From: Commensalibacter oyaizuii
GTDB taxonomy: Bacteria; Pseudomonadota; Alphaproteobacteria; Acetobacterales; Acetobacteraceae
Assembly: GCF_029953265.1 (NCBI RefSeq)
Contig: NZ_JASBAO010000001.1
Location: 434,001 to 498,000 of the forward strand
Direction: 5' to 3'
DNA length: 64,000 bases
Made by a program: the position numbers and the translations under genes. Every line of letters starts with the position of its first letter. Within the stretch, counting starts at the first letter, position 1. The notes below the pieces were generated by a model. That model was given only the letters and a program-made list of their open reading frames with translations. It ran no database searches and was not told the DNA's origin. Shown in pieces: positions 10,504 to 62,008 of this stretch.

Positions 10504-10522
10504 GGTAATTTCCTTTGTGGAT

Positions 10523-11652: not shown

Positions 11653-11673
11653 AATTGAGATTATATATATCGT

Positions 11674-12515: not shown

Positions 12516-12529
12516 TTAACTCTATATTT

Positions 12530-12838: not shown

Positions 12839-12893
12839 GAAATCCTCTTTGTTTTAACAGCATCTCTAATCCCTAGGGATTAGAGTTTATTAA

Positions 12894-12971: not shown

Positions 12972-13030
12972 AATGAGTTTTTAATTAGATGGTTCTAGTA
13001 AATAAAGCAAGCCCTTTTTTGTAAAAATTT

Positions 13031-14837: not shown

Positions 14838-14864
14838 TGCTGTCCGCACAGCACCCTCATATCA

Positions 14865-15430: not shown

Positions 15431-15589
15431 AGTCATTATATAATTAGAGTGTTAATTTTCGTAAAATTATATAATAAAAAACATATGAACTAAAAAATAA
15501 AGTAAGCAAACTGTAAGTTTAGGTAATTTTGATGGTACTAGATGTGGCATATTTAGTAATATTCGTGGCAAATTACTATCCCACAAGTC
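15431..15589. other. short noncoding stretch between two relics
   Basis: A/T-rich sequence with repeats of tatataatta type. No gene seen. It may be the lost 5' end of the IS1595 element. Confidence 0.35.
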
Positions 15590-32036: not shown

Positions 32037-32042
32037 GGTGCA

Positions 32043-33284
32043 ATGGTTTTAGTATTAAGCAGGCAATCCTTTGATCATTTAACCGCCCTTGGTCATAAAG
32101 AGATTGGGATATATAATTACTTTATACAAGAGATCATAACGCATCTAGGTTCCGAGCACGCATCTCTTTTCGCCAAACCTAATTATTATAACAATATTGT
32201 TCGATGGGAGGCCGAGGGTCAACATTACACCCCTTGGAATAAATTATCCTCTAGTCAACAAAATCAATTATTGGCAGCTGTTCAATCGATCTTATCAGAT
32301 ATTCGTCAGATTACGCTTTCTCATCCACATACGTTATTGGCGCAATATTTTGATCAAATTAAGCAAATTCCTTCGTTTGAATATATCTATGCGGTTGATG
32401 GAAAACCAGTATTAACAGGGTGGGGGTATCATCAAAAAGATGGTGCCTTTGTGGATTTATTGGACGGATATTCTGATTCAAAAAAACGATTTATGAGTAT
32501 ACATGGTTGGAAACAATTCCCGTGGATTACATCATTATTGGCGCTGGGTTGTGGAATATTAGCCTCGGTGATATGGCATGTTTCTCAGCATTCAGAAAAA
32601 GTTTGTTATGCAACCTATCCATTAATTAAAAATGTCGAAGAGGCACTAAAAGATAAAAATCAGAACCAAGCATTAACAAAAAAGCGAGATGATTTATTAA
32701 AATCTTTGGAAAATTTGAAAAAACAATGCGCTGTCCCCCCTGTACAACCATTGGTGCCCAAGGATGTGCCTGATTTACAACCTTTACCTGAAATCCCTAA
32801 AACACCAGAGTTAGATCCTATCCCTGATAGTGAGGCACTACCTAACAGTAAGCCACCACAATCTATGGAAACACCAAAACCACCCCCTCAACCCAAGCAA
32901 AATGTCGATTTACCCAAAGAGTCATGGAATAAAAAAGATACATCCATGCTGAATGGTTGTTGGCATTTAACAACACATCTGGAATTGTATCAACGCACCT
33001 TTTTTTCCACTTCTCATCAGCCTGTTACGAATTGGACTTTATGTTTCAAACCAAATGGCGCGGGAAGACAAGTACTAACACGTCGTGATGGTGGAACCTG
33101 TACTGGTCCGTTAAATGCACAGTTTCAAGGAAATAAATTGGTCTTACAGCAACCAACAGATTGTCAGGGGGCATTTCATCTAATTCCAGGTAAAAATGTT
33201 TGTACTCGACTAAATGATAAAGAGGCCAGATGTACTTATATTGATGCAGAAGGACACCAATCAACAGGTACTTTTAAACGTTAA
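32043..33284 (+). CDS. single-pass membrane protein with C-terminal six-cysteine domain (paralogue 1)
   Basis: A 413-residue protein of unknown function. The N-terminal 150 residues form a soluble domain ending in YAVDGKPVLTGWGYH; one transmembrane helix follows near 160-180 (SLLALGCGILASVIWHV), then a helical stretch, a Pro-rich linker (about 235-295) and a C-terminal domain from about 300 that starts MLNGCWHLTTHLEL. Six cysteines in that domain are conserved in the next gene, consistent with a disulfide-bonded periplasmic fold. An aaggtgca ribosome site precedes the ATG. Confidence 0.8.
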   Translation: MVLVLSRQSFDHLTALGHKEIGIYNYFIQEIITHLGSEHASLFAKPNYYNNIVRWEAEGQHYTPWNKLSSSQQNQLLAAVQSILSDIRQITLSHPHTLLAQYFDQIKQIPSFEYIYAVDGKPVLTGWGYHQKDGAFVDLLDGYSDSKKRFMSIHGWKQFPWITSLLALGCGILASVIWHVSQHSEKVCYATYPLIKNVEEALKDKNQNQALTKKRDDLLKSLENLKKQCAVPPVQPLVPKDVPDLQPLPEIPKTPELDPIPDSEALPNSKPPQSMETPKPPPQPKQNVDLPKESWNKKDTSMLNGCWHLTTHLELYQRTFFSTSHQPVTNWTLCFKPNGAGRQVLTRRDGGTCTGPLNAQFQGNKLVLQQPTDCQGAFHLIPGKNVCTRLNDKEARCTYIDAEGHQSTGTFKR

Positions 33285-33328
33285 GGGCTAGTTATGAATT
33301 TAACGTTTAAAAAGATGGAATGATTATT

Positions 33329-34561
33329 ATGGTTTTAATTTTAAATCATCATGATCTTGAAGATTATAAACCTTTATGTAACCAAGACAGGCAATTTCAT
33401 GATAAAGTAATTCACGAGATTGCAACGCTTATTGGTCCTAAACATGCCTCTATTTTTGCAAGCCCCCGATACCAGGAGGCTAAAGTTTTTTGGTGCGTTG
33501 ATGGACAACAAATTTATCCTTGGAAAAATTTATCTACCGCTCAGCAAAAAGAAACATTAACGTTTATTCATTCTGTATTGAATGATATTGCATTGATAAT
33601 CAATCAATATCCCAAGACTTTATTATTTCAATATATAAACCGTTATTATTTATTTCCTAGTTTAAACAATATATATGTTGTGGATGGTGTTCCTGTCATT
33701 ACCAGTTGGGGATATGCTGGGGCTACGGATTATTGTGACCCTTTATTACTAGTCCATAATAATCGCAAACTTTGGCGAATATTGACTTATTTCCCTTGGC
33801 TTACGTCGCTTTTATCACTAAGTTTTGGATTGTGTGCTGCAGTAATATGGCATGGTCTGCATCATAATAATAAAACGTGTTATAAGGATTATCCTTGTAA
33901 TAAAGATGTTAAGGCTGCGCTTGATACTGAAAAGCAGTCTGATGATTTGAAACGTCATCGCGATCAATTGTTGAATCAATTTGCTGGTTTGAAGAAACAA
34001 TGTCAGATTCCTGTTGTGCCACCTATAGCCCCTCAAGTTTTACCCGACAATACTTCTGTTCCAGATTTACCCCAAATGCCAGAATTATCTGTTCCTTTGC
34101 CGCAAACAATTCCAAAGTTTTCTCCACCCTCTAAACAGGCAGATATAAAACCCCCTCCTGTTGAGAAACCAAAGAAAAAAGTTGATTTGCCTAAAAGTGA
34201 ATGGGACAAAAAAAACATATCCATGTTAGCAGGATGTTGGCATTTAACAACACGAATGGATCTCGTTGAAATGCCTAGCAGACGTAATACGCCCGTAACA
34301 AATTGGTCAGTGTGTTTTGATAAAGGGGGTTTAGGTACTCAAACAATTACAAAATCAGATGGAAAAACCTGTAATGGTCAAGTAAAGGCATATTTCAAAG
34401 GCAATCAAATGGTAATAGAACAGCCTCAAAATTGTAAAGGAGGATTTTTCCTGTTACAAGGTACGCAAGCATGTACAAGAATCAATGATTATGAGGCTCG
34501 TTGTGTATATACTGATAATCGGCACATGTTAAAAGAACGTACAGGTATTTTTAAACGATAA
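33329..34561 (+). CDS. single-pass membrane protein with C-terminal six-cysteine domain (paralogue 2)
   Basis: A 410-residue paralogue of the gene just upstream, with the same order: N-domain ending YVVDGVPVITSWGYA, one transmembrane helix, helical stretch, Pro-rich linker and a C-terminal domain starting MLAGCWHLTTRMDL with the same six cysteines (for example WSVCF, GKTCNG, NCKGGF, ACTRIND, RCVYT). The start at 33329 is chosen because the paralogue begins MVLVL and this reads MVLIL; an ATG at 33320 adds three residues and has poor spacing. The pair is an old tandem duplication judged by its divergence. Confidence 0.8.
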   Translation: MVLILNHHDLEDYKPLCNQDRQFHDKVIHEIATLIGPKHASIFASPRYQEAKVFWCVDGQQIYPWKNLSTAQQKETLTFIHSVLNDIALIINQYPKTLLFQYINRYYLFPSLNNIYVVDGVPVITSWGYAGATDYCDPLLLVHNNRKLWRILTYFPWLTSLLSLSFGLCAAVIWHGLHHNNKTCYKDYPCNKDVKAALDTEKQSDDLKRHRDQLLNQFAGLKKQCQIPVVPPIAPQVLPDNTSVPDLPQMPELSVPLPQTIPKFSPPSKQADIKPPPVEKPKKKVDLPKSEWDKKNISMLAGCWHLTTRMDLVEMPSRRNTPVTNWSVCFDKGGLGTQTITKSDGKTCNGQVKAYFKGNQMVIEQPQNCKGGFFLLQGTQACTRINDYEARCVYTDNRHMLKERTGIFKR

Positions 34562-34562: not shown

Positions 34563-35066
34563 ATGATTAAAAAATTATTAAGTTCAATATTTTTGATTTG
34601 TAGCCCTGTTGCAGCCCATGGGGCCAATCTTGTTTATACAATGGATGGTCATGAAGAAAACTGGACTGCTTTTCATTATGAGGATAAAGTAAACGGTAAT
34701 ATTGATTCATGTTTTGCCATATCTAATGATTTGGGTTTAGGATTTAAAAGTAATAAAGAAGGCACTGGACTTGTTATCTGGGATCAACAAGGTCAACAAA
34801 AGCCACAAACAGACAAGCAAGCTGCTATTACTGTTGGTAAGCAACATTTTATCTTTACGATGAAGGCAATGGATCGGAATATGCTGATGAATCGTATGCA
34901 GCCAGATGATTTTCGAAAATTACTTCGATCTTTATCATTTGGGCAAATGGCTTTGATAGAGTATGGTCAACACCCAGTTAGCATTGTTGATTTATCGGGT
35001 ATGCCTACGATGTTAAATTATTTCAATAAATGTAATGCCAAAGCAGGTTTCACTAAAATCAAATAA
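34563..35066 (+). CDS. small secreted protein, last gene of the cluster
   Basis: A 167-residue protein with a signal peptide (residues 1-20, ending AHGA). The mature part is mostly beta-like with two cysteines (DSCFAIS and NKCNAKA) that could pair. It starts one base after the stop of the preceding gene, so it belongs to the same transcript, and a terminator follows at once. Function unknown; its place suggests a periplasmic partner of the membrane proteins. Confidence 0.78.
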   Translation: MIKKLLSSIFLICSPVAAHGANLVYTMDGHEENWTAFHYEDKVNGNIDSCFAISNDLGLGFKSNKEGTGLVIWDQQGQQKPQTDKQAAITVGKQHFIFTMKAMDRNMLMNRMQPDDFRKLLRSLSFGQMALIEYGQHPVSIVDLSGMPTMLNYFNKCNAKAGFTKIK

Positions 35067-46964: not shown

Positions 46965-46974
46965 GAAAAAAGTG

Positions 46975-49526: not shown

Positions 49527-52466
49527 ATGACCCGAACCATAACGTTAATACCTGACAGCGGATTACAATTTTGGCCAGTTAATTTTTCTGTTGAAGAAAT
49601 TAAAAGTGTACGTTGCTGGTTTTGGGAAGAACGTAATGGTGAATACGAAGATGGTAGCCCACGATATATATTACACAGATTAATAGAGGATACAGAAACA
49701 GGGGTAATCAAGGACCCTGAAACTGGTCAAGTTCCACCAGAGGATCAGATATACGATATTTCGTGGCGGTCAGTTGCACAATCCTTAATGGATCAATGGC
49801 TGCCTATGCCTTTTTTTGCATCCGTATCATCTGAACAAAATGGTAATGATTTTTTTCGCAATGGCCCAGGAAATTGGGTCAGGGGTCGTTTTATACAAAA
49901 CGAAGACGGGAAAATTCATCTTGATTTGGTGATTGATACAACACTTGAAACAACCGTGGAAAAAGGGGTATATAATGCCCCCACTTTGGAAGATAGCCAA
50001 AGGCAAGATCATTTTAGATTCGTTACTTCTTTAAAGGATATTGCTTGGTTTTTAAATGAAGGTTGGGTTGGTGATTGGCTATTAAAAATTCATCAAGACA
50101 ACCAGAAAAAAATACAATCTAAGAATTTAACAGATCATCAGTATTTTTGCTGGCATTATGCGGTCTATCAAACGTTATTACATATATTATCGTTAACGCA
50201 ACAAATGCCTGTATTGCATTTGCTGGACGGGGAACAAAATAAGAATTTACAAAATGCTGTCGAGGTTGATTTAGTACTAGATTTAGGGAATTCCAGAAGT
50301 TGTGGGATTTTAATCGAAGATCATCCAGGGCAGGATTTAAATTTTTCCAGTAGTTATCCTTTAATATTACGTGACTTGTCCCGCCCTCATTTGGAATATG
50401 ATGAACCATTTCCAAGTTGTATTGAATTTGCCAAGGCAAATTTCGGCAGTGACCTTTTATCAAGACGTTCTGGACGGGCCAAAGCATTTTTTTGGCCCAG
50501 TCCTGTTCGGGTCGGCTTCGAAGCTGCACATCTGGCAGGAACACGTATTGGAAACGAAGGGTTAACAGGATTATCTTCGCCCAAACGTTATGTTTGGGAC
50601 AGTCGCTTATCTTTACAAAGCTGGCGATACAACAGTCGTTCTATCAGTGATGGTGGTCGCATCATTGATCCCCCTGTAACAGGGGCTTTTATGGCGTTAA
50701 TTTCTCCAGAAGGACGTGTTCTATCAGATGAAGAACGTGCATCAGGGGCAAATATAGCAACGCAGCCTAATTTTTCCCGTAGTGCATTATTTACCTTTAT
50801 GTTTGTCGAAATTTTGATGCAAGCTCGATTGCAGATGAATTCCCCGCAAAATCGTGAGCAACGCCAAGACAAGACATTAATGCGAAAATTACGATCTATT
50901 GTTTTGACAATCCCCCCTGGTATGCCCGTAGCAGAACAAAAAGTTTTGCAAACCAGAACCAAGGCTGCCATTGATTTATGTTGGAAAATGTTGGGTCTGC
51001 CTTTTAATACACGTCCAAAACTACAATGTCGTCTAGATGAGGCAACGGCAACGCAAATCGTATGGTTGTATAACGAAATTACAGAACGGCTTGGTGGCAA
51101 TGTTGATGAATTTATGCGCCTACACGGCCGTATGCGCGATAATACAACAGGCGATAATATATCTCAATCCCCGTCAATTCGGGTTGCCAGTTTGGATATT
51201 GGTGGCGGAACAACAGATTTGATGATTAGTTCTTATAGCGTGCCTGTAGGTGAAACAATTTGCCCCAAACAAGAATTTCGAGAAAGTTTCAAGGTTGCTG
51301 GGGACGATATATTAGAACATTTAATTACGCATGTTATTTTACCCCTACTCGAAGATGCATTAAAGAAAGCAGGCGTGGTTGATACACAGGCCTTATTAAG
51401 TCGTGCAATCGGCCAGGATTGGGGGGGACAATCCGAGCAGGAACGTCACTTACGTCGTTTATTTGTTAATACAATTTTAGAACCAATCGCCATTGCTATT
51501 CTAGCCAAATATGAATCGATAACGGATCGCAATACCGAGGGATTACCCTCGTTTTACGTGCGGGATATATTGGGTGAAGACAAAGAAAATATTCAGCGGT
51601 CTGCACTTTATATTCATCGTCAGGCAGAACAGGCTGGGGCAAAAGAATTCAATATCGCTGATGTTCAGATTTCAGTAAAAATTCAACATATAGAAGCAGC
51701 CATTTCTCACGTTATGGGCGAGGTTATATCCAATTTATGTGAAGCTATTTGGGCATATGATTGCGATGTACTGCTGGTATCAGGGCGTCCTTCACGGTTC
51801 AGACGAATTGTTGATATGATTACTGCTGCTATGCCAGTTCCCCCACATCGAATTGTTGGTATGTATCATTACAGGGTTGGTGCATATTATGCATTTCGGG
51901 ATGCACGTAATCGGATTAATGACCCCAAAACAACCGTGGTGGTTGGGGCTTCGTTATGTCTTCAAGCCGAAGGGAAATTACAAAATTTTGTGCTACGTAC
52001 ACGGGATTTGAAAATGTATTCTACGGCACGTTTTATCGGACGATTGGAGAAAAACGGACAGTTAAGAGATAAAAATGTATGGATGTCTAACGTAGATTTA
52101 GAAAGCGATGTTGTAGAAAACGCAGGCTTTACAATCACGGACTTTGAAAACACAACCCGTATCGGATTTCGTCAGCTGGGAATAGAGCGTTGGCCGACCT
52201 CACCACTTTATACGTTAGAGTTTGGCAATTTTCCAGGTGCAAACAGGGTTGCATTGCCATTAACTGTAAAAATTGCCAGACAAAATATTGATTTGGATAA
52301 AGAACAAGAGAAGAATGACTATTCTGATCGTGAACAATTCAAAATTGCCGAAGTAACCGATCATAACGGAGAGCAATACCCCGTAAGAATATTATCATTA
52401 AGATTACAAACCATGCAAAATGCTGATGGCTATTGGCGCGACACAGGTCGCTTTACGTTGGCCTAG
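49527..52466 (+). CDS. SrfB-type actin/Hsp70-fold ATPase (putative virulence-factor family)
   Basis: A 979-residue protein matching the SrfB family by architecture and motifs. The ATPase core is visible: phosphate-1 loop VLDLGNSRSCGI near residue 248, phosphate-2 loop ASLDIGGGTTDLM near 556, and an adenosine-type loop LLVSGRPSRFR near 748. Outer segments are family-specific. Salmonella srfB is in the srfABC set under SsrB control, but no biochemical function is established. The ATG at 49527 has ggaga upstream; a GTG at 49491 is in frame but poorer. First gene of the seven-gene operon; 17 bases to the next start. Confidence 0.85.
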   Translation: MTRTITLIPDSGLQFWPVNFSVEEIKSVRCWFWEERNGEYEDGSPRYILHRLIEDTETGVIKDPETGQVPPEDQIYDISWRSVAQSLMDQWLPMPFFASVSSEQNGNDFFRNGPGNWVRGRFIQNEDGKIHLDLVIDTTLETTVEKGVYNAPTLEDSQRQDHFRFVTSLKDIAWFLNEGWVGDWLLKIHQDNQKKIQSKNLTDHQYFCWHYAVYQTLLHILSLTQQMPVLHLLDGEQNKNLQNAVEVDLVLDLGNSRSCGILIEDHPGQDLNFSSSYPLILRDLSRPHLEYDEPFPSCIEFAKANFGSDLLSRRSGRAKAFFWPSPVRVGFEAAHLAGTRIGNEGLTGLSSPKRYVWDSRLSLQSWRYNSRSISDGGRIIDPPVTGAFMALISPEGRVLSDEERASGANIATQPNFSRSALFTFMFVEILMQARLQMNSPQNREQRQDKTLMRKLRSIVLTIPPGMPVAEQKVLQTRTKAAIDLCWKMLGLPFNTRPKLQCRLDEATATQIVWLYNEITERLGGNVDEFMRLHGRMRDNTTGDNISQSPSIRVASLDIGGGTTDLMISSYSVPVGETICPKQEFRESFKVAGDDILEHLITHVILPLLEDALKKAGVVDTQALLSRAIGQDWGGQSEQERHLRRLFVNTILEPIAIAILAKYESITDRNTEGLPSFYVRDILGEDKENIQRSALYIHRQAEQAGAKEFNIADVQISVKIQHIEAAISHVMGEVISNLCEAIWAYDCDVLLVSGRPSRFRRIVDMITAAMPVPPHRIVGMYHYRVGAYYAFRDARNRINDPKTTVVVGASLCLQAEGKLQNFVLRTRDLKMYSTARFIGRLEKNGQLRDKNVWMSNVDLESDVVENAGFTITDFENTTRIGFRQLGIERWPTSPLYTLEFGNFPGANRVALPLTVKIARQNIDLDKEQEKNDYSDREQFKIAEVTDHNGEQYPVRILSLRLQTMQNADGYWRDTGRFTLA

Positions 52467-52483
52467 GGAAAGAACAGATAAGG

Positions 52484-55129
52484 ATGTCTGAAGGATTTCA
52501 AACAATGATTAAAACTTTACAGGCTCGTAATCATGCTGTGTCAACAGCAGCAGATCAAGCATTATCATGGTTTCATGATAATCCAAAAGCCGTCAAAGGG
52601 AATATAGAAACCGTTACAGCAAACTTACGACGTTTCAGAAGGCAGGCACGCCAATTAAATCGTGCTTCTCATCAACCTCCAGCCATTGCTGTTTTTGGTG
52701 CTTCACAGTCTGGAAAATCCTATTTGGTCTCTAGCCTTGCTACCAAACCTGGGCAGTCTTTATATGCTTATTATCATGATGAAAAATTAAATTTTCTGCA
52801 GGACATGAACCCACAGGGCGGAAACGAGTCAACAGGGCTTGTATCCCGTTTTACAACGGCAAAACCCAATGTTATTCAAGAGTCCATGCCCGTGCCGTTA
52901 AGGTTATTATCGGCTGTTGATGTTATTAAGATTTTAACAAATACTTCCTTAGAAGATTTTAAAACGAAAGAACAATCGACCGATTTTTTAATATCTGATA
53001 ATTTTTTTTCACCCTCTGAACCATTATCTGAAAAAGTTGTTAATGAAATTATTAATTTGGACGATATTGAGGGGTTGGTCGAGTATTTACAAGCTTTGTA
53101 TCCAGACCATCAACGTCTGGAAAATTTGGGGGATGGATATTGGCAACAGTTAAAAGATGTTATCCCTTATGTTTCAGTAAGGGAATGTGCGCGATTATTT
53201 TCGCCTTTGTGGAATGGTCTTGCTGAATTTACAAAATTAGCCACGTCTTTATTGACAATTTTAGAGCAGCTGGGACAAACGGATCTTGTTTATTGTAGTA
53301 CAGATGCTTTGCGCCCAAGGGAAAGAAGTATCTTAAACGTGGAAACCTTGTTTACCCTTGGACAAGAAACTTATGACGATCATATCACATTATTGACGAC
53401 CAAAGGCAAAGAGGTAACGATAAATCGATCTATGGTTACCGCCTTAACAGCAGAAATTACTGTTCCAATAGGTGAGGCCCCTTGGGATTTTTTAAAAGAA
53501 ACTGATCTGTTAGATTTTCCAGGCGCACGTTCAAGAGAAATAATTTATGAACCTCAAGCCTTTTTACAAGCACCAGAAGCAATAGGTAGATTGTTTTTAC
53601 GCGGCAAAGTTGCCTATTTATTTCAACGGTATGAGGTGGAGCGTGAAATATCTGCCATGCTGTTATGTATTGGGGATTCCATTCAAAATGTTTCCACTCT
53701 GCCTGCTATGATTGATGGCTGGATTAAAAGTAGTATCGGTGCAACCCCAGCAGATCGTGAAAAACAAAGGGATAATTTATTTATCGTTCTAACAAAATTT
53801 GATCGAGAGTTCGAACAAAAAAAGGGGGATGAACCTTCATCTGGTGCCCGTTGGACAGCCCGTATTAATGCCAGTTTGCTAGATTTCTTTAAGGCCAGCA
53901 GTTGGGTTGAAAATTGGAAAAACGATCAGCCATTTAATAATGTTTATTGGCTGCGCAGCCCTTCTATCAGCTTTCCGGCCGTTATGGATTATGACGATAT
54001 TGATGGCGTTCATAAAGAATCAGGCATAGCATCCAGATCCCAAGCACTGGTCCAAACGATGCGCCAATCTTATTTATCTAACCAGGCAATACAACGATAT
54101 GTAGCAAACCCAGATCAGGCCTGGGAGGCTGTATTACAACCTAATGATGGTGGAATTACCTATTTGGCACAAGCATTAGGTAAAGTTTGCGATGCGAAAT
54201 TAAAAGCCGAACAAATCTCAGCACAGACAGAACAACTGGCAGTAAATTTAGCACGTTTTATTTCCCCTTATCATCACAGTGGAAACAAGGAAGAAGCCAT
54301 TCGTAAAGCATCAATAGAGGCACAAACCATTGCTAGATCCTTGATGAAATGTGTTGAATCGCAAATGTTTGGACCTTTACTGTCAGGTTTACAGGTAACG
54401 CGCGATCAGATGAAAGAGGCATGGCATAGTTTGGAAACACAATCTGCAAATCAGCAATTTTTGATGGGCCGAACCAGTGATGTCGACAGCTTATTTGATG
54501 ATATGTTCCCTGATGCCGTTGATACGTCAACTGCAGAAGATTCTGATTCCAATCAACCCGAGACCGCCAAAGATCGCCATGAACAATATGCAGATCTGGC
54601 TTTGGATAAATGGAACAAGGTTATGGATCATTTTGCCAGTCAGGATCATGTTGAACAAACTTATTTTGTGCCATCTAATCAATTAACGGCTTTGACTGCT
54701 GAATTATCGTTGCTTTCCAGACGATTGAACTTACGAGATCAATTGGCAAATAAATTACGTAAAAATGCATCGCTACCAGGGAGTGCAGCATTAAGTGGTG
54801 AAACACAGGCTTTATTGGCTGAAATTGAAATTGGTAACTTTGTTAATTGGTTGGGCTATTTTGATGTTTTAGCTGAGCAAAAACCAATGACCCGAGGGTT
54901 AAAAGGGGAGCGGGTATTTATGCCAAGGCAAGCCCCTACAGGATTGTTGGTGTTACCTGAACAACCGATTCCTTATAATGAACGTTTCGTTAGAGATTGG
55001 ATTTCGGCTTTGGTACAACGTTTCGAGGAAAATGCTGGTGCCTCTGATTTAAAAGGTATAGACCCCGCCGCCAACGCATTATTAGGCCAAATTATCTCTG
55101 TATTGGAGGATAAACCTCATGAATGCTAA
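52484..55129 (+). CDS. SrfC-type large GTPase (putative virulence-factor family)
   Basis: An 881-residue protein of the SrfC family with a dynamin-like GTPase core. Motifs in order: G1/P-loop FGASQSGKSYLVSS (70-84), G3 LLDFPGARSRE near 341, and G4 LTKFDREFEQ near 434; helical regions flank them. It follows the SrfB gene, the arrangement known from Salmonella. Start at 52484 is uncertain; ATG at 52505 (MIKTLQARN) also has a good aagga site. The stop overlaps the next start by eleven bases. Confidence 0.85.
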   Translation: MSEGFQTMIKTLQARNHAVSTAADQALSWFHDNPKAVKGNIETVTANLRRFRRQARQLNRASHQPPAIAVFGASQSGKSYLVSSLATKPGQSLYAYYHDEKLNFLQDMNPQGGNESTGLVSRFTTAKPNVIQESMPVPLRLLSAVDVIKILTNTSLEDFKTKEQSTDFLISDNFFSPSEPLSEKVVNEIINLDDIEGLVEYLQALYPDHQRLENLGDGYWQQLKDVIPYVSVRECARLFSPLWNGLAEFTKLATSLLTILEQLGQTDLVYCSTDALRPRERSILNVETLFTLGQETYDDHITLLTTKGKEVTINRSMVTALTAEITVPIGEAPWDFLKETDLLDFPGARSREIIYEPQAFLQAPEAIGRLFLRGKVAYLFQRYEVEREISAMLLCIGDSIQNVSTLPAMIDGWIKSSIGATPADREKQRDNLFIVLTKFDREFEQKKGDEPSSGARWTARINASLLDFFKASSWVENWKNDQPFNNVYWLRSPSISFPAVMDYDDIDGVHKESGIASRSQALVQTMRQSYLSNQAIQRYVANPDQAWEAVLQPNDGGITYLAQALGKVCDAKLKAEQISAQTEQLAVNLARFISPYHHSGNKEEAIRKASIEAQTIARSLMKCVESQMFGPLLSGLQVTRDQMKEAWHSLETQSANQQFLMGRTSDVDSLFDDMFPDAVDTSTAEDSDSNQPETAKDRHEQYADLALDKWNKVMDHFASQDHVEQTYFVPSNQLTALTAELSLLSRRLNLRDQLANKLRKNASLPGSAALSGETQALLAEIEIGNFVNWLGYFDVLAEQKPMTRGLKGERVFMPRQAPTGLLVLPEQPIPYNERFVRDWISALVQRFEENAGASDLKGIDPAANALLGQIISVLEDKPHEC

Positions 55130-56171
55130 GTTAAAAATTAATGCTGCATCACCAGGCGAGGCTATTGTTACTGTTATTGGTCAAGCTGGGCAGTTGGATA
55201 CAAATTTAACCATTGCTTTTCCTCAATTTCCTGCAATTATATCGCAACCGATTATCCATCAAGAGGTACGGGGGGACGATTTACTATTAACCCTTGATGC
55301 CGATAGTTTGGCAGATATTTTAGAACCTGGCAGTCCTTGCCAGCTGAAAATTCCTGAATTGAATATTATTGAAACGATAATTTGGCCAGAAATCGTTGGC
55401 AAAAGAAGCGGTCAAAAAGGTGTTGTTGCAACAGCACCAAAATCAACCATACCCCCCAAAGAGGAAAAATCTTCGGAACTTGAAATGGACGAAGTTCCAG
55501 AACCATCTGTTGAAGAAAATAGTATTCCAGAACGTATGGCACCCATCCACATAGAAGAAGAAGCCCCATTGGTAGATGAAATTAAGCAAAAACGCTCTGC
55601 TTTGCCAATGATTTTGTCAGCTATTTTTGGAATATGTATTCTTGGGGCTTGTGCTGGAATTTGGTATGGTTACTATCAAAAACCCTCGCCTCAAAAAGCA
55701 CAAGCGATCAAAAAGGAAAATAAAGACAAAGAGGTTGCTAAAAAATCACCGCCACCGCCACCTGCGCCTTCCCAACCACCGCCTCAATTTACTGAAAATT
55801 TGGAAAAAATGACGGTGACAGATGTCATTAATAAGGCACCCAATACAGCACTTATCGTTAAAGAGGCAGATCGACGTCTGGCCAATAAACAGGCCGATGA
55901 TGGGGTTTTATTATTAGAAAATGCAGCCTCTAAGGGGGACAAAACAGCAATGTTAAAATTGGGACAATTATATAGTCCTGTTGATTTTAAAGTTGGAGGA
56001 GCCATTCCAAGCCCAGATATGAGGGAAGCAGCACGTTATTTTCAAAAAGCTGTTCAAAACGGATCTAAAGAAGCCGAACTACCAAGAGCAGCTTTGAAAG
56101 AATGGTTAACAAAAAAGGCAAATGACGGGGATACGATGGCACAGCTAACATTAAAGGATTTCTGGCCATGA
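55119..56171 (+). CDS. single-pass membrane protein with Sel1-like C-terminal repeats
   Basis: A 350-residue protein. Residues 1-90 look like a beta-rich soluble domain, then an acidic stretch, one transmembrane helix at about 161-183 (LPMILSAIFGICILGACAGI), a Lys-rich and Pro-rich linker (185-225), and Sel1/TPR-like helices (about 230-345; AASKGDKTAMLKLGQLYS, then AARYFQKAVQNGSKEAEL). It is likely an inner-membrane scaffold that links cytoplasmic SrfB/SrfC to envelope partners. Its ATG lies inside the end of the SrfC gene, and its end overlaps the VWA gene start. Confidence 0.8.
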   Translation: MNAKLKINAASPGEAIVTVIGQAGQLDTNLTIAFPQFPAIISQPIIHQEVRGDDLLLTLDADSLADILEPGSPCQLKIPELNIIETIIWPEIVGKRSGQKGVVATAPKSTIPPKEEKSSELEMDEVPEPSVEENSIPERMAPIHIEEEAPLVDEIKQKRSALPMILSAIFGICILGACAGIWYGYYQKPSPQKAQAIKKENKDKEVAKKSPPPPPAPSQPPPQFTENLEKMTVTDVINKAPNTALIVKEADRRLANKQADDGVLLLENAASKGDKTAMLKLGQLYSPVDFKVGGAIPSPDMREAARYFQKAVQNGSKEAELPRAALKEWLTKKANDGDTMAQLTLKDFWP

Positions 56172-58162
56172 GTATATTTCGATTAAATCATATTCTTGCG
56201 CTTGGTTTTATTGCAACGTGCCTGACAATGGGGGACAGTTGTTATGTTTATGGTGCATCATTAGATCCTGTTTTACCGTCTGTTTCTGAAAACCATAACG
56301 ATGGATCGAAACCGTTATTGATTGAGGGCAAACATAGTTTATACCAACGTATTATAACAAAACCAGGTGTCGCAATTTCTCAACAGCCCTCTGCTGAAAA
56401 TACCCAACCCATAGAGGGGTTTAAAGTCTTTTATGTTTATCAACGCCATAAAAACGAGCAGGGGCAAGAAGATTGGATACAGGTCGGATCCGATACTCAG
56501 GGACATGTTGTGGGGTGGGTTCCTGTTGATAAGGTAATGAACTGGTCACATACATTGGTTGGGGCATTTACCAATCCCGCAGGTCGTGAACGTTCCTTGT
56601 TTTTGAAAACAGAACAAGATGAAAAACAGTTAATGACTGATCCCAATGCCGCACAAAAAGCAAAAGAGTTAATTCAAGCAGCAACTTCAGAAAACCCAGG
56701 TCCAGTCGTGGCTCTTGAACCAACAACGTATGTTGATATTACCAAGAATTTTTATTTGTTACCTATTTTAGATGCCCAACAAGTTGAACGCCCCAGTGGG
56801 CCACCGTTGCGATTGTTACATGTTGTTTCTGCCCCAGCAGAAACAGGAAAAAATCAAGCCAATGCTTCACCTGCTAATTTAAGGAATTTTAAGGCTAATT
56901 TAGTATTTGTAATGGACACGACCATTAGTATGGAGCCGTATATTGAACAAACGCAAAAAGCTGTAAAATCCGTTGTTAGCACCATTCAAAACACAGCTGT
57001 AAAAGATAATTTTCGCTTTGGTCTTGTGGCTTATCGTGACAGTTTAAAAGATAATCCAGGGTTGGAGTATGAAACCAAAGTTTACGCAAAGCCTGATTTT
57101 TCACAACCATTGGATGCTATTAATACCTCAATTGCAGCAGTTCATGATGCTAAAGTTTCATCCAAATCGTTTGATGAGGATGCAATTGCTGGTATTAAGA
57201 CAGCTTTGGACGAAATTAATTGGGATCAGGCTGCTGGTCGCTATTTGATCTTGGTTACAGATGCAGGCGCTAGGGATGCAACCCACCCTAATAGCATTAC
57301 AAAATTAGGGATCGAAGAAATAAGACAACTGGCACAATCTAAAAATGTTGCTGTTTTTGTGGTTCATTTATTAACCCCAGCAGGCGAGAAAAACAATGAC
57401 CATAAAAAAGCTGAAAAACAATATAGAGCATTAAGCCAATTTGGAACCGCAGGGTCGCTTTATTATCCAGTAAAAGGCGGAACACCAGAAGAATTCGGCA
57501 AAGTAATTCAAACTTTATCTACGTCCTTATTACAACAAGTTGCCAATACAACGGGGCGTCCCGTTGCAGGTTTAAAACCAGAGGATAAAACCGCCCAAGA
57601 TAAAGCTGCACAAAAACAAATTCAGGTTGTTAGTGAAGCCATGCGATTAGCTTATGTTGGGAAAGAAGAAAAAACAGCAGCACCAGACGTGGTTTCCAGC
57701 TATACGACTGATCGCGATTTAACAAATCCTATGAAAAAATCGATAAAAGTTAGGGTATTATTAACTCGTAATCAATTGTCTGATTTAGCACAAGCTTTAC
57801 AAATTATTTTAAAAACGGGTCTTGCTGGCCGAACAGAACCCCAAACATTTTTTACACAATTACGATCAGCCTTTGCCGCTGCCGCCAGAGATCCCAGTCA
57901 GATTGCCAAAGCTCAGCAAATAGGGACAATGTTGGGCGAATATTTGCAAGGGTTACCTTATAAATCAGACATTATGAATATTTCTGAAAAAGATTGGTTA
58001 GCCATGGGGGCGATAGCGCAAAGAACGGTATTAAATAATGTGGAAAGTCGTCTACGTTTATATCAAGAATATCAAGCTCATCCAGATCTTTGGGTACAAT
58101 TAAGTGGCAGCAAAGATCCAGGAGAAGCTGTATTTCCCGTACCGCTAGAGGCCTTGCCCTGA
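56168..58162 (+). CDS. secreted VWA-domain protein with SH3-like segment
   Basis: A 664-residue exported protein (signal peptide about 1-30). An SH3-like segment lies near 60-125 (GFKVFYVYQRH, then HVVGWVPVDKV), a von Willebrand A domain at about 241-450, and a helical C-terminal region. The metal-ion site reads D250-T-T-I-S254, with Thr in the position often held by Ser (DxSxS); the metal-site partner is VTDAGARDATH. The SH3 plus VWA layout resembles the extracellular part of PpkA, the type VI secretion kinase, but no kinase domain is present. Ends with TGATG overlap with the ABC gene. Confidence 0.84.
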   Translation: MSIFRLNHILALGFIATCLTMGDSCYVYGASLDPVLPSVSENHNDGSKPLLIEGKHSLYQRIITKPGVAISQQPSAENTQPIEGFKVFYVYQRHKNEQGQEDWIQVGSDTQGHVVGWVPVDKVMNWSHTLVGAFTNPAGRERSLFLKTEQDEKQLMTDPNAAQKAKELIQAATSENPGPVVALEPTTYVDITKNFYLLPILDAQQVERPSGPPLRLLHVVSAPAETGKNQANASPANLRNFKANLVFVMDTTISMEPYIEQTQKAVKSVVSTIQNTAVKDNFRFGLVAYRDSLKDNPGLEYETKVYAKPDFSQPLDAINTSIAAVHDAKVSSKSFDEDAIAGIKTALDEINWDQAAGRYLILVTDAGARDATHPNSITKLGIEEIRQLAQSKNVAVFVVHLLTPAGEKNNDHKKAEKQYRALSQFGTAGSLYYPVKGGTPEEFGKVIQTLSTSLLQQVANTTGRPVAGLKPEDKTAQDKAAQKQIQVVSEAMRLAYVGKEEKTAAPDVVSSYTTDRDLTNPMKKSIKVRVLLTRNQLSDLAQALQIILKTGLAGRTEPQTFFTQLRSAFAAAARDPSQIAKAQQIGTMLGEYLQGLPYKSDIMNISEKDWLAMGAIAQRTVLNNVESRLRLYQEYQAHPDLWVQLSGSKDPGEAVFPVPLEALP

Positions 58163-58875
58163 TGGCACCAGAAAGGCAAAATCAAGACGTATTCTATCTT
58201 GAGAAAATATCTCGCCAATTTACAGGCGGTATTGCCATTGAAATTGCCATGGCACGGATAAGGCTAAGGGACAAGATTTTAATATCAGGTCCCTCTGGAT
58301 GTGGGAAAAGTACGATTTTGGGTCTTCTTTCTTTATCCCTAAGACCAGATAGGGGCAAAATATTCTTATGCAATCAAATTGATATTTTAGACAAATGGCG
58401 TCTTAATCGTCGTGATGATTTGGCAATGATAAGGGCCTCTTTGTTTGGGTTTATTCCGCAGACAGCTGGATTAATTCCATTTTTAACCCTTCAAGACAAT
58501 ATTCTATTGCCACAACATCTAATTGCTAAACAAGATCAAAGTTGGTTTGAACATTTAGTAAAACGACTGGAAATTGCATCGATTATTTCAAAAAAACCGC
58601 ATGAGGTTTCTGTAGGGCAGAGACAGCGTGCTGCCGTGGCTAGGGCATTAATTAATCGTCCTTTTATTGTGTTAGCAGATGAACCAACAGCCTCTGTACA
58701 TCCTTCATTGGCCGATGAAATATTGCAGCTTTTAATTGAAACTGTTGCAGAAAGCAATTCAGCGCTGATTATGACCTCACATGATACACAACGTACCCTA
58801 AAATACGGCTTGACCGAAGTTGCATGTCAACTGGATCCACAAAATCAAACGACAAGGTTGGTTTGTAATGTATAA
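58162..58875 (+). CDS. ABC transporter ATP-binding protein (LolD/MacB-like)
   Basis: A 237-residue ATPase. Walker A is GPSGCGKST at 43-51, the Q-loop Gln is at 100 (FIPQ), the signature is VSVGQRQR (149-156) instead of LSGGQ, Walker B is VLADEP and the H-loop is in MTSHDTQ. The size and partner permease fit the LolCDE/MacB/FtsE group, which move substrates in the envelope by a mechanotransmission cycle rather than across the membrane in the usual way. Start overlaps the VWA stop by one base. Confidence 0.88.
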   Translation: MAPERQNQDVFYLEKISRQFTGGIAIEIAMARIRLRDKILISGPSGCGKSTILGLLSLSLRPDRGKIFLCNQIDILDKWRLNRRDDLAMIRASLFGFIPQTAGLIPFLTLQDNILLPQHLIAKQDQSWFEHLVKRLEIASIISKKPHEVSVGQRQRAAVARALINRPFIVLADEPTASVHPSLADEILQLLIETVAESNSALIMTSHDTQRTLKYGLTEVACQLDPQNQTTRLVCNV

Positions 58876-60088
58876 ACGCTTTCATTTTTTATTATCTGCA
58901 CGATTAGCATGGCAGGATTTAAAAAGTGAACCTATCCTATCCTTGTGCCTTGTTCTAGGGATTGTTGCCGTTTTGGCCCCTTTGATTGTAATTGCTGGAT
59001 TGCGCAGTGGGGTCTTGACCAGTATCCGACAGACATTATTAGAAGATCCTCATGCTCGTGAAATTGTTAACGTTTCTAACCGCAGCTTTTCTAATGAGGT
59101 GTTAAACTCATTAAGAAATAGAAAAGATGTTCAGTTTTTAGCACCAAGAACCCGTACATTAGCAGCCAGTTTGTTTATGGAAAAAGCCAACGACCCTGGC
59201 AGTGGTCGTCATATTACGATTATTCCAACTGCAAAAGGGGACCCATTATTAACAGATATTACCCCATCTATTATCAATAATAACGAAATTATTCTTTCCT
59301 CATCGGCTGCCAATCATTTACACCTTAAGAAAGGGGATGAAATTACAGCTTATTTGAATCGTATTTTAAAAGGGGAAAAACAGCAAACTCGATTTACCTT
59401 AAAGATTATCGGAATAGCTCCAAGCTCTATCACAGATCAAGACAGTGCGTTTGTAACGTTATCCTTGGCCGTGGGGATTGAGTCTTATCAAGATGGGGTC
59501 ATGTCTTGGCCCAATACGTTACAGGAATTGGTTTTACCATCCCATACTGTTTATTCGGGATTTCGATTATACACACATAACCTTGCTGAAATACCTAAAA
59601 TTGATGCTGATTTGCGGCAATCAGGAATTGATATTGTTTCAAGAGCAGGGGATGTTTCTGGCTTATTATCCCTAGATTATCGATTATCTTTACTCTTTAT
59701 TTGTGTTGCTGCCCTTGGGGGTTTGGGGTTGTGTATCTCATTAGGCGCAGGACTATGGGCTAATACAGAGCGTAAGCGTAAGTCGTTGGCTTTGCTGCGG
59801 TTCAATGGTTTTAGTGCTGTTGATCTGATGATTTTTCCAGTAATACAAGGGGCTGTTTTGGTATGTTTGGGGGTTATAATATCATTGGGGGCTGCAGTGG
59901 GGGCTGGGCAATTAATCAATTATTTGTTTAATACTGTTTTACCGCAAGGGCATGCTTTATTCTTATTAAACATATGGATTATTTTGGGCAGTTTTATATT
60001 GACTTTGACGGGTGGAATAATTGTCAGTCTGTTATCAGGAAATCGAGCCGCCAGAATTCAACCTTGGGAAGGAATAACGGCATTATGA
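58868..60088 (+). CDS. FtsX/MacB-type ABC permease
   Basis: A 406-residue permease with one N-terminal membrane helix (LSLCLVLGIVAVLAPLIVI, about 23-42), a large extracytoplasmic domain (about 45-275) and three C-terminal helices, the four-helix plan of MacB, LolC/E and FtsX. C-terminal helix segments include LLFICVAALGGLGLCISLG. Start and stop overlap the neighbouring genes (8 and 4 bases), so it is co-translated with the ATPase. Substrate is unknown; the operon context points to a lipoprotein or protein complex. Confidence 0.85.
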   Translation: MYKRFHFLLSARLAWQDLKSEPILSLCLVLGIVAVLAPLIVIAGLRSGVLTSIRQTLLEDPHAREIVNVSNRSFSNEVLNSLRNRKDVQFLAPRTRTLAASLFMEKANDPGSGRHITIIPTAKGDPLLTDITPSIINNNEIILSSSAANHLHLKKGDEITAYLNRILKGEKQQTRFTLKIIGIAPSSITDQDSAFVTLSLAVGIESYQDGVMSWPNTLQELVLPSHTVYSGFRLYTHNLAEIPKIDADLRQSGIDIVSRAGDVSGLLSLDYRLSLLFICVAALGGLGLCISLGAGLWANTERKRKSLALLRFNGFSAVDLMIFPVIQGAVLVCLGVIISLGAAVGAGQLINYLFNTVLPQGHALFLLNIWIILGSFILTLTGGIIVSLLSGNRAARIQPWEGITAL

Positions 60089-61638
60089 ATTGCAAAATAC
60101 TGATTATAATCGCGATGGGAATAAGTATTCCCACAGCTTCATACAGTGCAGATCCTTCATGGCCTGAAAATTTTATTGATCCACATCCCATGGATGGCGA
60201 TTTTACGTTACCCATGCCATGCGGAGGGGCAATGGTTTTTAGAGCCGTTGAAGTCCCTTCTGAAGGTGGTGTTTTGGATGATATATCCGTTCAAATGGGG
60301 CAAGGGGATACAGATCAAGGATATAGTAATTACATCCATCAATCTGCTCTAGCTGGATCATTTCCATCATCAAAATCTAGTGTAAAATTATATTATATTG
60401 GTAAATATGATGTCACACGTAATCAATATAACGCCATTATGCATGCTGGTAAGGAATGCGTTAATGTTGATCAAAATGGACAAAAACCAATAAATAATGT
60501 GTCTTGGTTTGATGCTCAGGATTTTGCAAGACAATGGTCAACATGGCTGTTACAAAATGCCAAGCAATCTTTACCAAAACGTGATAATAGTTTTGGATTT
60601 ATCCGTTTACCAACCGAGGCTGAGTGGTATTACGCAGCCCAAGGGGGAAATAAAGTCAGCAATACAGATTTTTTATCGCCAACGTGGCCAATGCCCGAAG
60701 GAATAGAGCAATACGTAATGGCAGGATCTGAATTGGCGAATGGTCAAGTACAGACTGTTGGGGCGATGAAACCCAATCCTTTGGGGCTGTATGATATGTT
60801 GGGTGAAGTTGGCCAAATGATGCAGGATTATTATCATTTAAACCGAGTAGGGCGGTTACATGGACAAACAGGGGGAATTATTGTGAAAGGAGGAAATTAT
60901 ACCTTTAACCCATCTGATCTAAACACGGCCTTACGCGAAGAAATCCCCTTGTACGATTCAAATACTAATGCCCCAACAAAATTGGCAACGATGGGGTTCA
61001 GGGTTGTTATTGCAGGACCCAGTCTGGGCAGTTTGCAAGAAACGACACAGGCTGATAATGAATTCAAGGCAATATTACAAAAATCTGAAAATATTACTTC
61101 AGATACGCATCAATTAATCCAAACATTAAAAAGCCAAACAACAGAAGCAACAACCAAAGCAGGTCTTGATCGTATTTCAGCTCAGCTTGATTCAGATGCC
61201 AGGGCCCGCAATGATGCACAAGCTGCAACCATGCGTGCCCAAATTGAGGCCGCTTCTGCTTTGGCAATGAATATATGGGAACATCAACATACAATTAATT
61301 TACTGGAAAAAGAATTATCCGTCCTTAAAATGTTAAGCGATAAACAAAAGGCAGATATCCAGGCCAACGTGCAAAATCACAAAAAGATTTTACAAGGATC
61401 CGTTGAAGGATATTTAGACTTAATTCGTCAAATTGCAGATGCGGCACCAGTGGTCGATAAAAGCAAGCAATTTTCAATGGTGACAACAGCCTATAAAACT
61501 AGAAATTTAGACAATCTAGCCTTTTTTGCTGATCAAGTTCAAAATTTGTTGTCGACACCAAAGGGTAAATGGACCGTTGCTTATGTAATCCAACAAATCA
61601 GTGCTATCTCCCCAATTCAGGCAAGGGATAAGAAATAA
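60085..61638 (+). CDS. formylglycine-generating-enzyme-like (SUMF1-fold) exported protein with coiled-coil tail
   Basis: A 517-residue protein with a signal peptide (ending SYS at 21). Residues about 34-330 carry the FGE-sulfatase-type C-lectin-like fold: KYDVTRNQYNAIM, NNVSWFDAQDFARQWS, FIRLPTEAEWYYAAQGG, NPLGLYDMLGEVGQMMQD and a closing MGFRVV strand. The cysteine pair needed for sulfatase activation in real FGEs is absent; the equivalent stretch reads VKGGNYTFNPSDLN. From about 340 to 500 the protein is a long helical or coiled-coil tail. It is likely a structural or binding module, not an enzyme. Last gene of the operon; start overlaps the permease stop (ATGA). Confidence 0.83.
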   Translation: MNCKILIIIAMGISIPTASYSADPSWPENFIDPHPMDGDFTLPMPCGGAMVFRAVEVPSEGGVLDDISVQMGQGDTDQGYSNYIHQSALAGSFPSSKSSVKLYYIGKYDVTRNQYNAIMHAGKECVNVDQNGQKPINNVSWFDAQDFARQWSTWLLQNAKQSLPKRDNSFGFIRLPTEAEWYYAAQGGNKVSNTDFLSPTWPMPEGIEQYVMAGSELANGQVQTVGAMKPNPLGLYDMLGEVGQMMQDYYHLNRVGRLHGQTGGIIVKGGNYTFNPSDLNTALREEIPLYDSNTNAPTKLATMGFRVVIAGPSLGSLQETTQADNEFKAILQKSENITSDTHQLIQTLKSQTTEATTKAGLDRISAQLDSDARARNDAQAATMRAQIEAASALAMNIWEHQHTINLLEKELSVLKMLSDKQKADIQANVQNHKKILQGSVEGYLDLIRQIADAAPVVDKSKQFSMVTTAYKTRNLDNLAFFADQVQNLLSTPKGKWTVAYVIQQISAISPIQARDKK

Positions 61639-61972: not shown

Positions 61973-62008
61973 AAAAAGAGGCTTTTTAGATTTAAAAAGC
62001 CTCTTTTT
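61973..62008. terminator. bidirectional terminator between the Srf-type operon and putA
   Basis: aaaaagaggcttttt and aaaaagcctcttttt form a perfect 15-bp stem with a six-base loop and T-runs on both strands, just before the putA stop at 62013. Confidence 0.93.

Follow-up and report, generated by a model that had tools for sequence, protein, structure and literature searches.

SrfB and SrfC carry no annotation beyond "virulence factors," and the experiments found on them concern the enterobacterial SrfABC proteins. Xenorhabdus SrfA, SrfB, and SrfC form a complex (PMC6950479), and in Salmonella a srfC mutant, a srfB polar mutant, and a srfABC deletion mutant swarm poorly (PMC4219756). A second system, the TagQRST-PpkA pathway of the Pseudomonas H1-type type VI secretion system (T6SS), is required for the response of P. 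aeruginosa to outer-membrane damage (PMC11881912); within this sensory module, TagS and TagT are described as a classical ABC transporter, for which the available portion of the account names no substrate (PMC6657622). In 2013, srfABC was noted beside tagQRST/ppkA in oral Deltaproteobacteria (PMC3608642), so the neighborhood itself is not new. By its authors' names, that gene set is of the same kind as the one described here; in the available part of the report the VWA gene is read as PpkA, the kinase, and SrfC is regarded as an effector that may be exported, whereas the VWA protein described below has no kinase domain. Neither a missing kinase nor SrfA diversity (one putative cytoplasmic domain with variable exported domains) was found in the texts searched.

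The operon compared here with these systems lies in a stretch of 64,000 nucleotides of Commensalibacter oyaizuii DNA, the whole of which is called the window. Within 49527..61638 the plus strand carries seven intact ORFs, which, counted from their likely starts, are separated by junctions of +17, -11, -4, -1, -8, and -4 nt (Table 1). The original prediction of one tight operon on one strand, with overlaps or short gaps, agrees with these junctions and the intact ORFs. Its outline of the parts also holds: two apparently cytoplasmic nucleotide-driven proteins (SrfB and SrfC, with nucleotide-binding motifs and without a hydrophobic segment), one membrane link (MemC, with one hydrophobic segment), and two presumably exported proteins (the VWA protein, with a signal-peptide-like start, and the FGE-like protein, with a hydrophobic start). 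Pfam cut-offs are exceeded by SrfB, SrfC, VWA_4, ABC_tran, and FGE-sulfatase; FtsX (24.7, cut-off 25.5), MacB_PCD (21.8, cut-off 27), and Sel1 (14.2, cut-off 30.7) fall below theirs. Terminator-like sites such as the stem downstream of the operon are at chance level overall (13 versus 11.8 ± 3.2 in shuffled sequences), and a promoter scan was uninformative (43 sites versus 38 ± 7).

Table 1. Features of the window. Starts of the seven operon genes (SrfB to TagR-like) are likely starts, all ATG; TM, transmembrane segment.
Feature	Position	Strand	Remarks
SrfA-type protein 1	29563..31284	+	SrfA N-domain, TM, HtrA-like trypsin domain; Trypsin_2 80.3 bits
SrfA-type protein 2	31281..32036	+	SrfA N-domain and two hydrophobic segments only
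SrfA-type protein 3	32043..33284	+	SrfA N-domain, TM, Cys-rich C-domain; no Pfam match
SrfA-type protein 4	33320..34561	+	Like protein 3; no Pfam match
Small protein, signal-peptide-like start	34563..35066	+	1 nt after SrfA-type protein 4; no Pfam match; candidate member
SrfB, 979 aa	49527..52466	+	PF07520 866.7 bits; no hydrophobic segment; motifs (see text)
SrfC, large P-loop NTPase	52484..55129	+	PF10139 688.2 bits; GASQSGKS, DFPG, TKFD motifs
MemC, one-TM protein	55119..56171	+	N-domain, hydrophobic segment 159-184, Sel1-like C-domain
VWA protein, homologue of PpkA C-terminal region without kinase	56168..58162	+	VWA_4 37 bits; signal-peptide-like start
TagT-like ABC ATPase	58162..58875	+	ABC_tran 84 bits; 37% to L106 TagT
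TagS-like FtsX/MacB-type permease	58868..60088	+	Four hydrophobic segments; 34% to L106 TagS
TagR-like FGE-fold protein, hydrophobic start	60085..61638	+	FGE-sulfatase 107.7 bits; 28% to L106 TagR
Terminator-like 16-pair stem	61973..62008	+	335 nt past last operon stop

The last four genes connect the operon to the TagQRST-PpkA pathway. The VWA protein, which has DTTIS and TDA motifs, aligns with PpkA of the Pseudomonas locus L106 at 36% over 635 positions (E 4e-131), and the ABC ATPase, permease, and FGE-like protein match TagT (E 2e-42), TagS (E 2e-50), and TagR (E 4e-50) of the same locus. By these alignments, genes 4-7 are collinear homologues of the PpkA C-terminal region, TagT, TagS, and TagR. 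This order recurs in all eight fetched Pseudomonas PpkA-type loci, although the ABC profile matches a pair of overlapping ORFs in L125 and L124 has a split VWA match. At E 0.1, none of the seven operon proteins matches a kinase family in Pfam; L106 and L107, two of the eight PpkA-type loci, are shown to carry a Pkinase domain together with the VWA region. The operon differs from the Pseudomonas pathway in having no kinase domain, with SrfB, SrfC, and MemC in the kinase's place, and in standing outside any T6SS cluster. The TagR-like protein has, by sequence profile, an FGE-like region as in PorK/GldK, TvpA, and SUMF1/FGE, and is probably not an enzyme: none of nine aligned rows has a Cys after the GG motif, in the segment that we take to be the position of the FGE catalytic Cys pair. 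In quick trees of VWA and FGE only, the eight T6SS rows form one clade, all from one genus; the SrfB-type VWA rows do not, a Desulfovibrio row on a long branch falling with the T6SS rows. Such two-gene quick trees do not show whether the cassette passed from T6SS to SrfB-type loci or the other way.

The first three genes are less easily placed. SrfB has two ASKHA-like phosphate motifs, with DxGN[ST] and DxGxGTxD in all 25 rows of its alignment, and a GRPS motif that is possibly the adenosine motif. These phosphate-type motifs are compatible with the predicted actin fold; the profile tests do not reach significance (FtsA, E 0.75; MreB, E 5.5; HscC, probability 22% with the match off the motifs). 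That SrfC is a GTPase is likewise still a prediction, with a P-loop and DFPG in the window protein but TKxD in just 5 of 23 aligned rows (window included); G1 and G3 motifs occur together in 17 of the 23. The alignment leaves out L022 and L029 (both of which have SrfC), the fragment L008, and a second partial SrfC match of L026. The P-loop and DxPG are both intact, as in the window, in all 16 other rows versus one of the seven SrfABC-only rows, a comparison confounded with ancestry since those seven are all Enterobacterales; in the remaining six of the seven, at least one of the two motifs is degraded. Against PDB profiles SrfC has no significant P-loop match (E 0.15-0.42). A separate, unexplained match is to a chain named serine protease (E 0.007). 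The C-terminal part of MemC is presumably exported, and MemC is retained beside SrfBC even in loci without genes 4-7, among them L003, L004, L010, and L161. An identity of MemC with SrfA was considered and is too weak to claim (NCBIfam SrfA, E 0.014, 14.8 bits of 150).

No SrfA gene lies directly upstream of SrfB, where a transporter-like gene is found on the minus strand (47929-49299). Instead, four SrfA-type membrane proteins are encoded within the window at 29563-34561, upstream by about 15 kb, and the first has the H, D, and S motifs of its trypsin domain (TNRHVV, FDLAV, and PGNSGG). The window thus resembles the srfABC operon of Salmonella, Xenorhabdus, and other Enterobacterales in its adjacent SrfB and SrfC genes and in having SrfA-type proteins in the genome; it differs in that SrfA is set apart in four copies and MemC and the sensor cassette are added. 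A search for ORFs with the SrfA N-domain gave 93, of which 90 were kept and three dropped for a late match start. A hydrophobic segment is present in 87 of the 90, starting at residues 141-239 in 80 of those 87, which fits inner-membrane proteins. Pfam and NCBIfam were run on 62 of the 90 and on L005:10804 from the dropped three, 63 proteins in all; the others, many of them near-duplicates, were omitted. From these features SrfA appears to be a family with one shared cytoplasmic N-domain and variable exported C-domains.

A pair of glycine-zipper lipoproteins is encoded beyond the end of the window, 7.7 kb downstream of the operon. One of them (G000:C1:503395-503991) scores 87 bits against the profile of SrfB-type lipoproteins, which has matches in 18 of 60 genomes, some without SrfB. 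A glycine-zipper lipoprotein somewhere in the genome is a possible further likeness to the TagQRST-PpkA pathway, although the similarity of this protein to the L106 candidate for TagQ, itself a glycine-zipper protein by Pfam, is weak (31 bits). Judged by gene content, the system is larger than seven genes, with the SrfA-type proteins and the lipoprotein pair added.

Conserved co-occurrence had been set beforehand as a test of the original prediction, and the same seven genes are found in one order and on one strand in 34 loci, window included, most of them fetched for having SrfB or a high-scoring VWA match. A scan by SrfB alone gave at least 26 loci, 24 of them with at least 6 kb downstream. 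Among the matches listed, six of these 24 have all seven genes and three part of the run (L023 and L029 at contig ends, L031 without an FGE match); three have SrfB-SrfC-MemC only, eight SrfABC only, and four another layout. Thus 15 of the 24 listed loci have no recognizable run of genes 4-7 after SrfC, and SrfB and SrfC can occur without the cassette. In one locus of other layout, L025, an ABC match and two weak VWA matches, of 35 and 46 bits, lie upstream of SrfB. Among 60 genomes (the window's own and relatives), SrfB occurs in 13, and TagR-like matches above 450 bits in those same 13 (next best, 185 bits), counts that ignore ancestry. The SrfA N-domain occurs in 14, namely these 13 and G020, an 86%-complete assembly with no SrfB and its match at a contig edge. 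In Pseudomonas, all 13 SrfB-type loci (L012, L112-L123) are runs of SrfA-SrfB-SrfC-MemC-VWA-ABC-FtsX-FGE, and none of 49 genomes among 119 holds both PpkA-type and SrfB-type VWA proteins.

On this gene content, the VWA protein, the TagT/TagS-type ABC pair, the TagR-type protein, and presumably the remote lipoprotein pair are a cassette of the PpkA/TagQRST type without the kinase, encoded with SrfB, SrfC, and MemC and co-occurring with SrfA-type membrane proteins. The function toward which we lean, at somewhat better than even confidence, is a T6SS-independent response to envelope damage. The lipoprotein, TagR-like, and VWA proteins would sense outer-membrane disturbance together with TagST, and MemC would substitute for the transmembrane link of PpkA and relay the signal inward. 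SrfB and SrfC would gather on MemC and the SrfA proteins at the cytoplasmic domains of these. Nucleotide turnover by SrfB and SrfC would switch the exported portions of SrfA, which in the window are Cys-rich domains and an HtrA-like protease and which may then serve envelope quality control or repair. The predicted trans-envelope machine is supported in its parts and their co-occurrence, but the prediction had missed the kinship with PpkA-TagRST, the SrfA proteins, and the lipoprotein pair.

Control of a T6SS in trans, with the cassette acting as PpkA/TagQRST does and SrfB and SrfC as extra regulators, is an unlikely alternative. Homology of genes 4-7 to the PpkA VWA region and TagRST speaks for it, and in the window's own genome, which has the sheath gene TssC on another contig (C2:28569) and a single TagR-like match, such control is possible. 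SrfB and TssC are also positively associated among 299 Pseudomonadota genomes (TssC in 10 of 13 with SrfB versus 49 of 286 without), in a sample where seven of the 13 SrfB genomes are of one family and a 14th, sub-cut-off SrfB match is not counted. Yet the seven proteins have no kinase domain, and TssC is missing in seven of nine genomes of the genus (the nine including the window's own, which has it) and in 9 of the 13 SrfB genomes of the 60-genome set. Among the 119 Pseudomonas genomes, it is present in 36 of 36 with PpkA-type VWA and 59 of 70 others, and missing in 3 of 13 with SrfB-type VWA; this and the phylum sample are not fully independent, since they share at least one Pseudomonas genome (G308 and G146, with matches at the same place). 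Of the host-associated Deltaproteobacteria covered by the 2013 report, in the part available, just one Desulfovibrio has T6SS machinery genes (PMC3608642). Annotations of "ppkA/tagR" do not imply a T6SS. An exporter of the Lol/Mac type, in which the ABC pair moves lipid or lipoprotein for envelope biogenesis and SrfB/SrfC power or place it, is rather improbable. In NCBIfam the ATPase scores best against LolD, and the permease resembles FtsX/MacB, but LolD reaches 111 bits of a cut-off of 308 (MacB, 78 of 966), both the partners and the order of the genes match TagT/TagS, and no substrate gene was identified. Of the predicted ABC exporter, the FtsX/MacB-like ABC pair is borne out and the export role is putative; the homologues TagS and TagT belong to a sensory module in the available account (PMC6657622).

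That place of TagS/TagT also counts against a secreted tripartite toxin of SrfA, SrfB, and SrfC with the other genes as its export machine, as do SrfB and SrfC without hydrophobic segments and with nucleotide-binding motifs, the hydrophobic segments of the SrfA-type proteins, and SrfB loci that come also from water, soil, and plant isolates; we give it little credence, even though Xenorhabdus SrfA, SrfB, and SrfC are reported, in the part available, to be toxic to cells and to form a heteromeric complex (PMC6950479). Equally slight is the chance that genes 1-3 form one module and genes 4-7 another, unrelated one, under a common promoter. SrfBC with or without MemC does stand apart from genes 4-7 in the 15 loci above, and Tag-type cassettes occur without SrfBC in the eight Pseudomonas PpkA loci, L072, and L156; against this, starts and stops overlap, the order is identical in 34 loci, and SrfB coincides with strong TagR-like matches in the 60 genomes (ignoring ancestry).

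The envelope-damage reading links SrfB and SrfC to a sensor whose input is known in Pseudomonas, outer-membrane damage, and so gives them a testable role, as a possible means for a cell to answer envelope damage without a kinase. Tentatively, the Tag cassette may be a module re-wired to several outputs, its SrfABC form belonging to a separate class of trans-envelope signaling in which the relay is no longer phosphorylation but an actin-like protein with a P-loop NTPase. In the same speculative reading, the outputs might be a kinase with a T6SS, SrfB/SrfC with polymorphic SrfA effectors, and at least two more contexts (L072 and L156). Two other candidates were rejected. PADLOC, as regards a phage-defense system, gives one weak SrfC match (E 0.008), generic ATPase matches for the ABC protein, and none for the other five. 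A plasmid origin is at odds with the size of the window's contig, 2.34 Mb, though 142 plasmid records, 114 from Klebsiella, do contain SrfB relatives.

The operon consists of seven intact ORFs with junctions of +17, -11, -4, -1, -8 and -4 nt, which bears out the original prediction of seven genes on one strand with overlaps or very short gaps. SrfB, SrfC (Pfam "Virul_Fac"), the VWA protein, the ABC ATPase and the FGE-like protein (FGE-sulfatase) match the predicted families above the Pfam cut-off. The permease has four hydrophobic segments, although FtsX and MacB, the families proposed for it, fall below the cut-off; the third protein (MemC) has the expected membrane character, with one hydrophobic segment (residues 159-184), but Sel1 lies far below the cut-off. 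The FGE-like protein begins with a hydrophobic stretch. The VWA protein has a start that is signal-peptide-like by eye, its hydrophobic stretch staying under the threshold used, and no segment of SrfB or SrfC is hydrophobic enough to pass that threshold.

Positions of the operon and of related features (L-numbers, fetched loci; G-numbers, genomes; C-numbers, contigs)
Feature	Sequence	Position	Strand	Remark
Filamentous-haemagglutinin-type gene pieces	window	24105-28556	+	by eye; short ORFs in several frames, upstream of the SrfA cluster
Four consecutive SrfA-type genes	window	29563-34561		about 15 kb upstream of SrfB
Protein with signal-like start	window	46972-47922		by eye; two aspartyl-protease-like motifs (DTGS, DSGA)
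Seven-gene operon	window	49527-61638	+	SrfB, SrfC, MemC, VWA, ABC ATPase, permease, FGE-like
Lipoprotein pair	own genome, C1	503374-504537		7.7 kb past the operon, outside the window
T6SS sheath gene	own genome, G000:C2	28569-29471		contig other than that of the operon
Possibly diverged cassette	L025	1189-8405		upstream of SrfB: weak VWA matches (35, 46 bits), ABC match
VWA-ABC-FtsX-FGE-lipoprotein	L156 (G195:C35)	8510-15792		VWA ORF of 757 aa

In Pseudomonas aeruginosa, H1-T6SS assembly in answer to outer-membrane damage depends on TagQRST/PpkA, according to the available text of PMC11881912 and PMC6657622. The VWA profile matches 49 of 119 Pseudomonas genomes: 13 matches score 939-1037 bits in ORFs of 665-690 aa, and 36 score lower (35 of these lie in ORFs of 968-1292 aa and reach 625-650 bits; the other, in G143, is split and reaches 434 bits). 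Both family-scanned members of the lower-scoring group combine Pkinase with VWA, and are thus PpkA; length and score indicate that the other 34 are probably PpkA as well. The window VWA protein shares 36% over 635 positions with the PpkA of the Pseudomonas locus L106 (E 4e-131), in an alignment that spans PpkA from residue 406 to its final residue, and the ABC, permease and FGE-like proteins match the genes next to it (E 2e-42, 2e-50 and 4e-50). The order PpkA-ABC-FtsX-FGE recurs in all eight fetched PpkA-type loci, with the VWA match split in L124 and two overlapping ABC matches in L125; SrfB, SrfC and MemC have no match in the 20 kb read around these loci. Upstream ORFs in L106 and L109 were named by eye as putative TssK, TssL, TssM, TagF and PppA. 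The window cassette thus keeps the gene order of Pseudomonas TagQRST-PpkA and encodes a PpkA without its kinase domain, then TagT, TagS and TagR. The interpretation originally proposed, a trans-envelope machine, is right in outline and was too cautious in one respect, since a named sensor is recognisable; the ABC pair stands, but the label "exporter" was too bold.

To read the neighbourhoods of SrfB, profiles were made from seven loci, the window plus six on plasmids; those for genes 4-7 were built on four sequences. The proposed co-occurrence is conserved: all seven genes stand in the same order at 34 loci (the window, 19 in a first survey, 12 in a second and 2 in a third), most of them chosen for retrieval by the presence of SrfB or a high-scoring VWA. 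Examples include Gluconobacter albidus (L002), Cereibacter azotoformans (L005), Enterobacter sp. 638 (L007), Pseudomonas (L012, L027), Vreelandella, Terasakiella, Arboricoccus and an uncultured Rhodopila. A scan by SrfB alone gave at least 26 loci; among the 24 of those listed with at least 6 kb downstream, 6 carry all seven genes and 3 a portion of the series; SrfB-SrfC-MemC stands alone in 3 and SrfABC in 8, and the remaining 4 are arranged differently. SrfB/SrfC therefore forms the more widespread core, which MemC often accompanies and to which genes 4-7 add a further module.

SrfB keeps DxGN[ST] and DxGxGTxD in 25/25 aligned rows, motifs of the kind seen in ASKHA ATPases. However, the matches of its profile to FtsA and MreB have E values of only 0.75 and 5.5, and the match to Hsp70-type HscC (probability 22%) lies away from the motifs; an actin fold was too bold a claim. 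The GTPase assignment of SrfC went similarly too far: GxxxxGKS and DxPG are present in 17/23 rows, but TKxD in just 5/23, the window among them. Both of the former motifs are intact in 16/16 other rows versus one of seven SrfABC-only rows, all seven from Enterobacterales. This loss suggests a relaxation of NTPase function in loci that lack MemC and the cassette; ancestry could explain it too. In the SrfC alignment, L017-L021 and L033 (SrfABC-only Enterobacterales) have a degenerate P-loop and/or DxPG.

The sensor cassette of the operon is not tied to a T6SS. In a sample of 60 genomes (the own genome and relatives), SrfB occurs in 13, and a TagR-like protein scores above 450 bits in exactly these 13 (G036 follows with 185 bits, and no other genome reaches 80). 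The sheath protein TssC, a marker of T6SS, is present in 21 of the 60, but no more than 4 of the 13 genomes with SrfB have it; within the genus it occurs in two of nine genomes, one of them the own genome, which has a single TagR-like match. The trend is opposite among 299 Pseudomonadota genomes, 7 of whose 13 SrfB genomes are from one family: TssC accompanies SrfB in 10/13 versus 49/286 without SrfB (Fisher 8e-6, ignoring ancestry). VWA matches above 400 bits occur in 11 of the 299: 6 of the 13 SrfB genomes (ORFs of 661-738 aa), 4 genomes with PpkA-length ORFs, all with TssC and none with SrfB, and a third kind (G195) with neither. In Pseudomonas, TssC is found in 36/36 PpkA-type, 10/13 SrfB-type and 59/70 other genomes, and both VWA types occur together in 0/49 (hypergeometric 0.007, ignoring ancestry, with the best 10 candidates scored in some genomes).

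Quick trees place the eight T6SS rows, all from one genus, in one clade each for VWA (99) and FGE (100); a single branch (82) sets the SrfB-type FGE rows apart from all others, whereas none does so for the SrfB-type VWA rows. Locus L072 (G036:C100) has the order MemC-VWA-ABC-FtsX-FGE, the MemC match being weak (34 bits), and also carries an SH3/Gly-zipper lipoprotein; SrfB and SrfC are absent from the 19 kb read, and the genome has no SrfB. L156, where SrfB, SrfC and MemC are unmatched in the 20 kb read, is a third wiring. From these two contexts, the Tag-type cassette looks like a reusable sensor. Two large proteins (ORFs of 681 and 1044 aa), neither with a Pfam match above cut-off, adjoin the L072 cassette.

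The system extends beyond the seven-gene operon. With a profile built on the N-terminal domain of SrfA, four window genes are picked out, and in each product one or two hydrophobic segments come after this domain; the C-terminal part of the first protein is an HtrA-like trypsin domain (80 bits) in which the H, D and S motifs are present, and the third and fourth have a common Cys-rich end. The domain occurs in 14/60 genomes (the 13 with SrfB, and G020), with 3-4 copies in each genus member. Family scans of 63 SrfA-type proteins give NCBIfam SrfA in 57 (at E 0.001), trypsin in 6, VWA in 11 and subtilase in 1; 87/90 have a hydrophobic segment. These features mark SrfA as a family whose members share an N-terminal domain, presumably cytoplasmic, and differ in their C-terminal domains. 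Gluconobacter has four SrfA-type genes, SrfB, SrfC, MemC, VWA, ABC, permease, FGE-like and two lipoproteins in one row. The first lipoprotein of the window-genome pair is present in 9/9 genus genomes (18/60 in all, at E 0.01) and, at 31 bits, is only weakly similar to the candidate TagQ from L106; the glycine-zipper of the window-genome lipoprotein was read by eye, the Pfam matches belonging to the L106 and L072 lipoproteins.

The available text of PMC3608642 (2013) describes host-associated Deltaproteobacteria with srfABC, a Hap-like gene, tagQ, ppkA and ligA, with tagR, tagS and tagT added in most genomes; T6SS machinery is in only one of them, and independence from T6SS was therefore already noted there. 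PpkA was taken as a kinase and SrfC as a possible effector. The seven-gene observation is confirmed. In Xenorhabdus, srfABC lies near T6SS-control genes, and SrfA, SrfB and SrfC are toxic and form a heteromeric complex (PMC6950479, available part). Among the matches listed from the open-licence literature, no other treatment of a combined SrfABC-Tag system was recognised, and no earlier statement of a kinase-less VWA gene or of SrfA as a polymorphic family was found in the available text.

The sequences show the parts, their order, their co-occurrence and their hydrophobic segments. By analogy with TagQRST, the cassette would sense outer-membrane damage; the signal would pass via MemC in place of the PpkA transmembrane helix, the targets of SrfB/SrfC would be the cytoplasmic domains of MemC and of SrfA, and exported SrfA domains would be the output. 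Salmonella srfC and srfABC mutants swarm poorly (PMC4219756, available part), which fits a surface or envelope role, short of proof.
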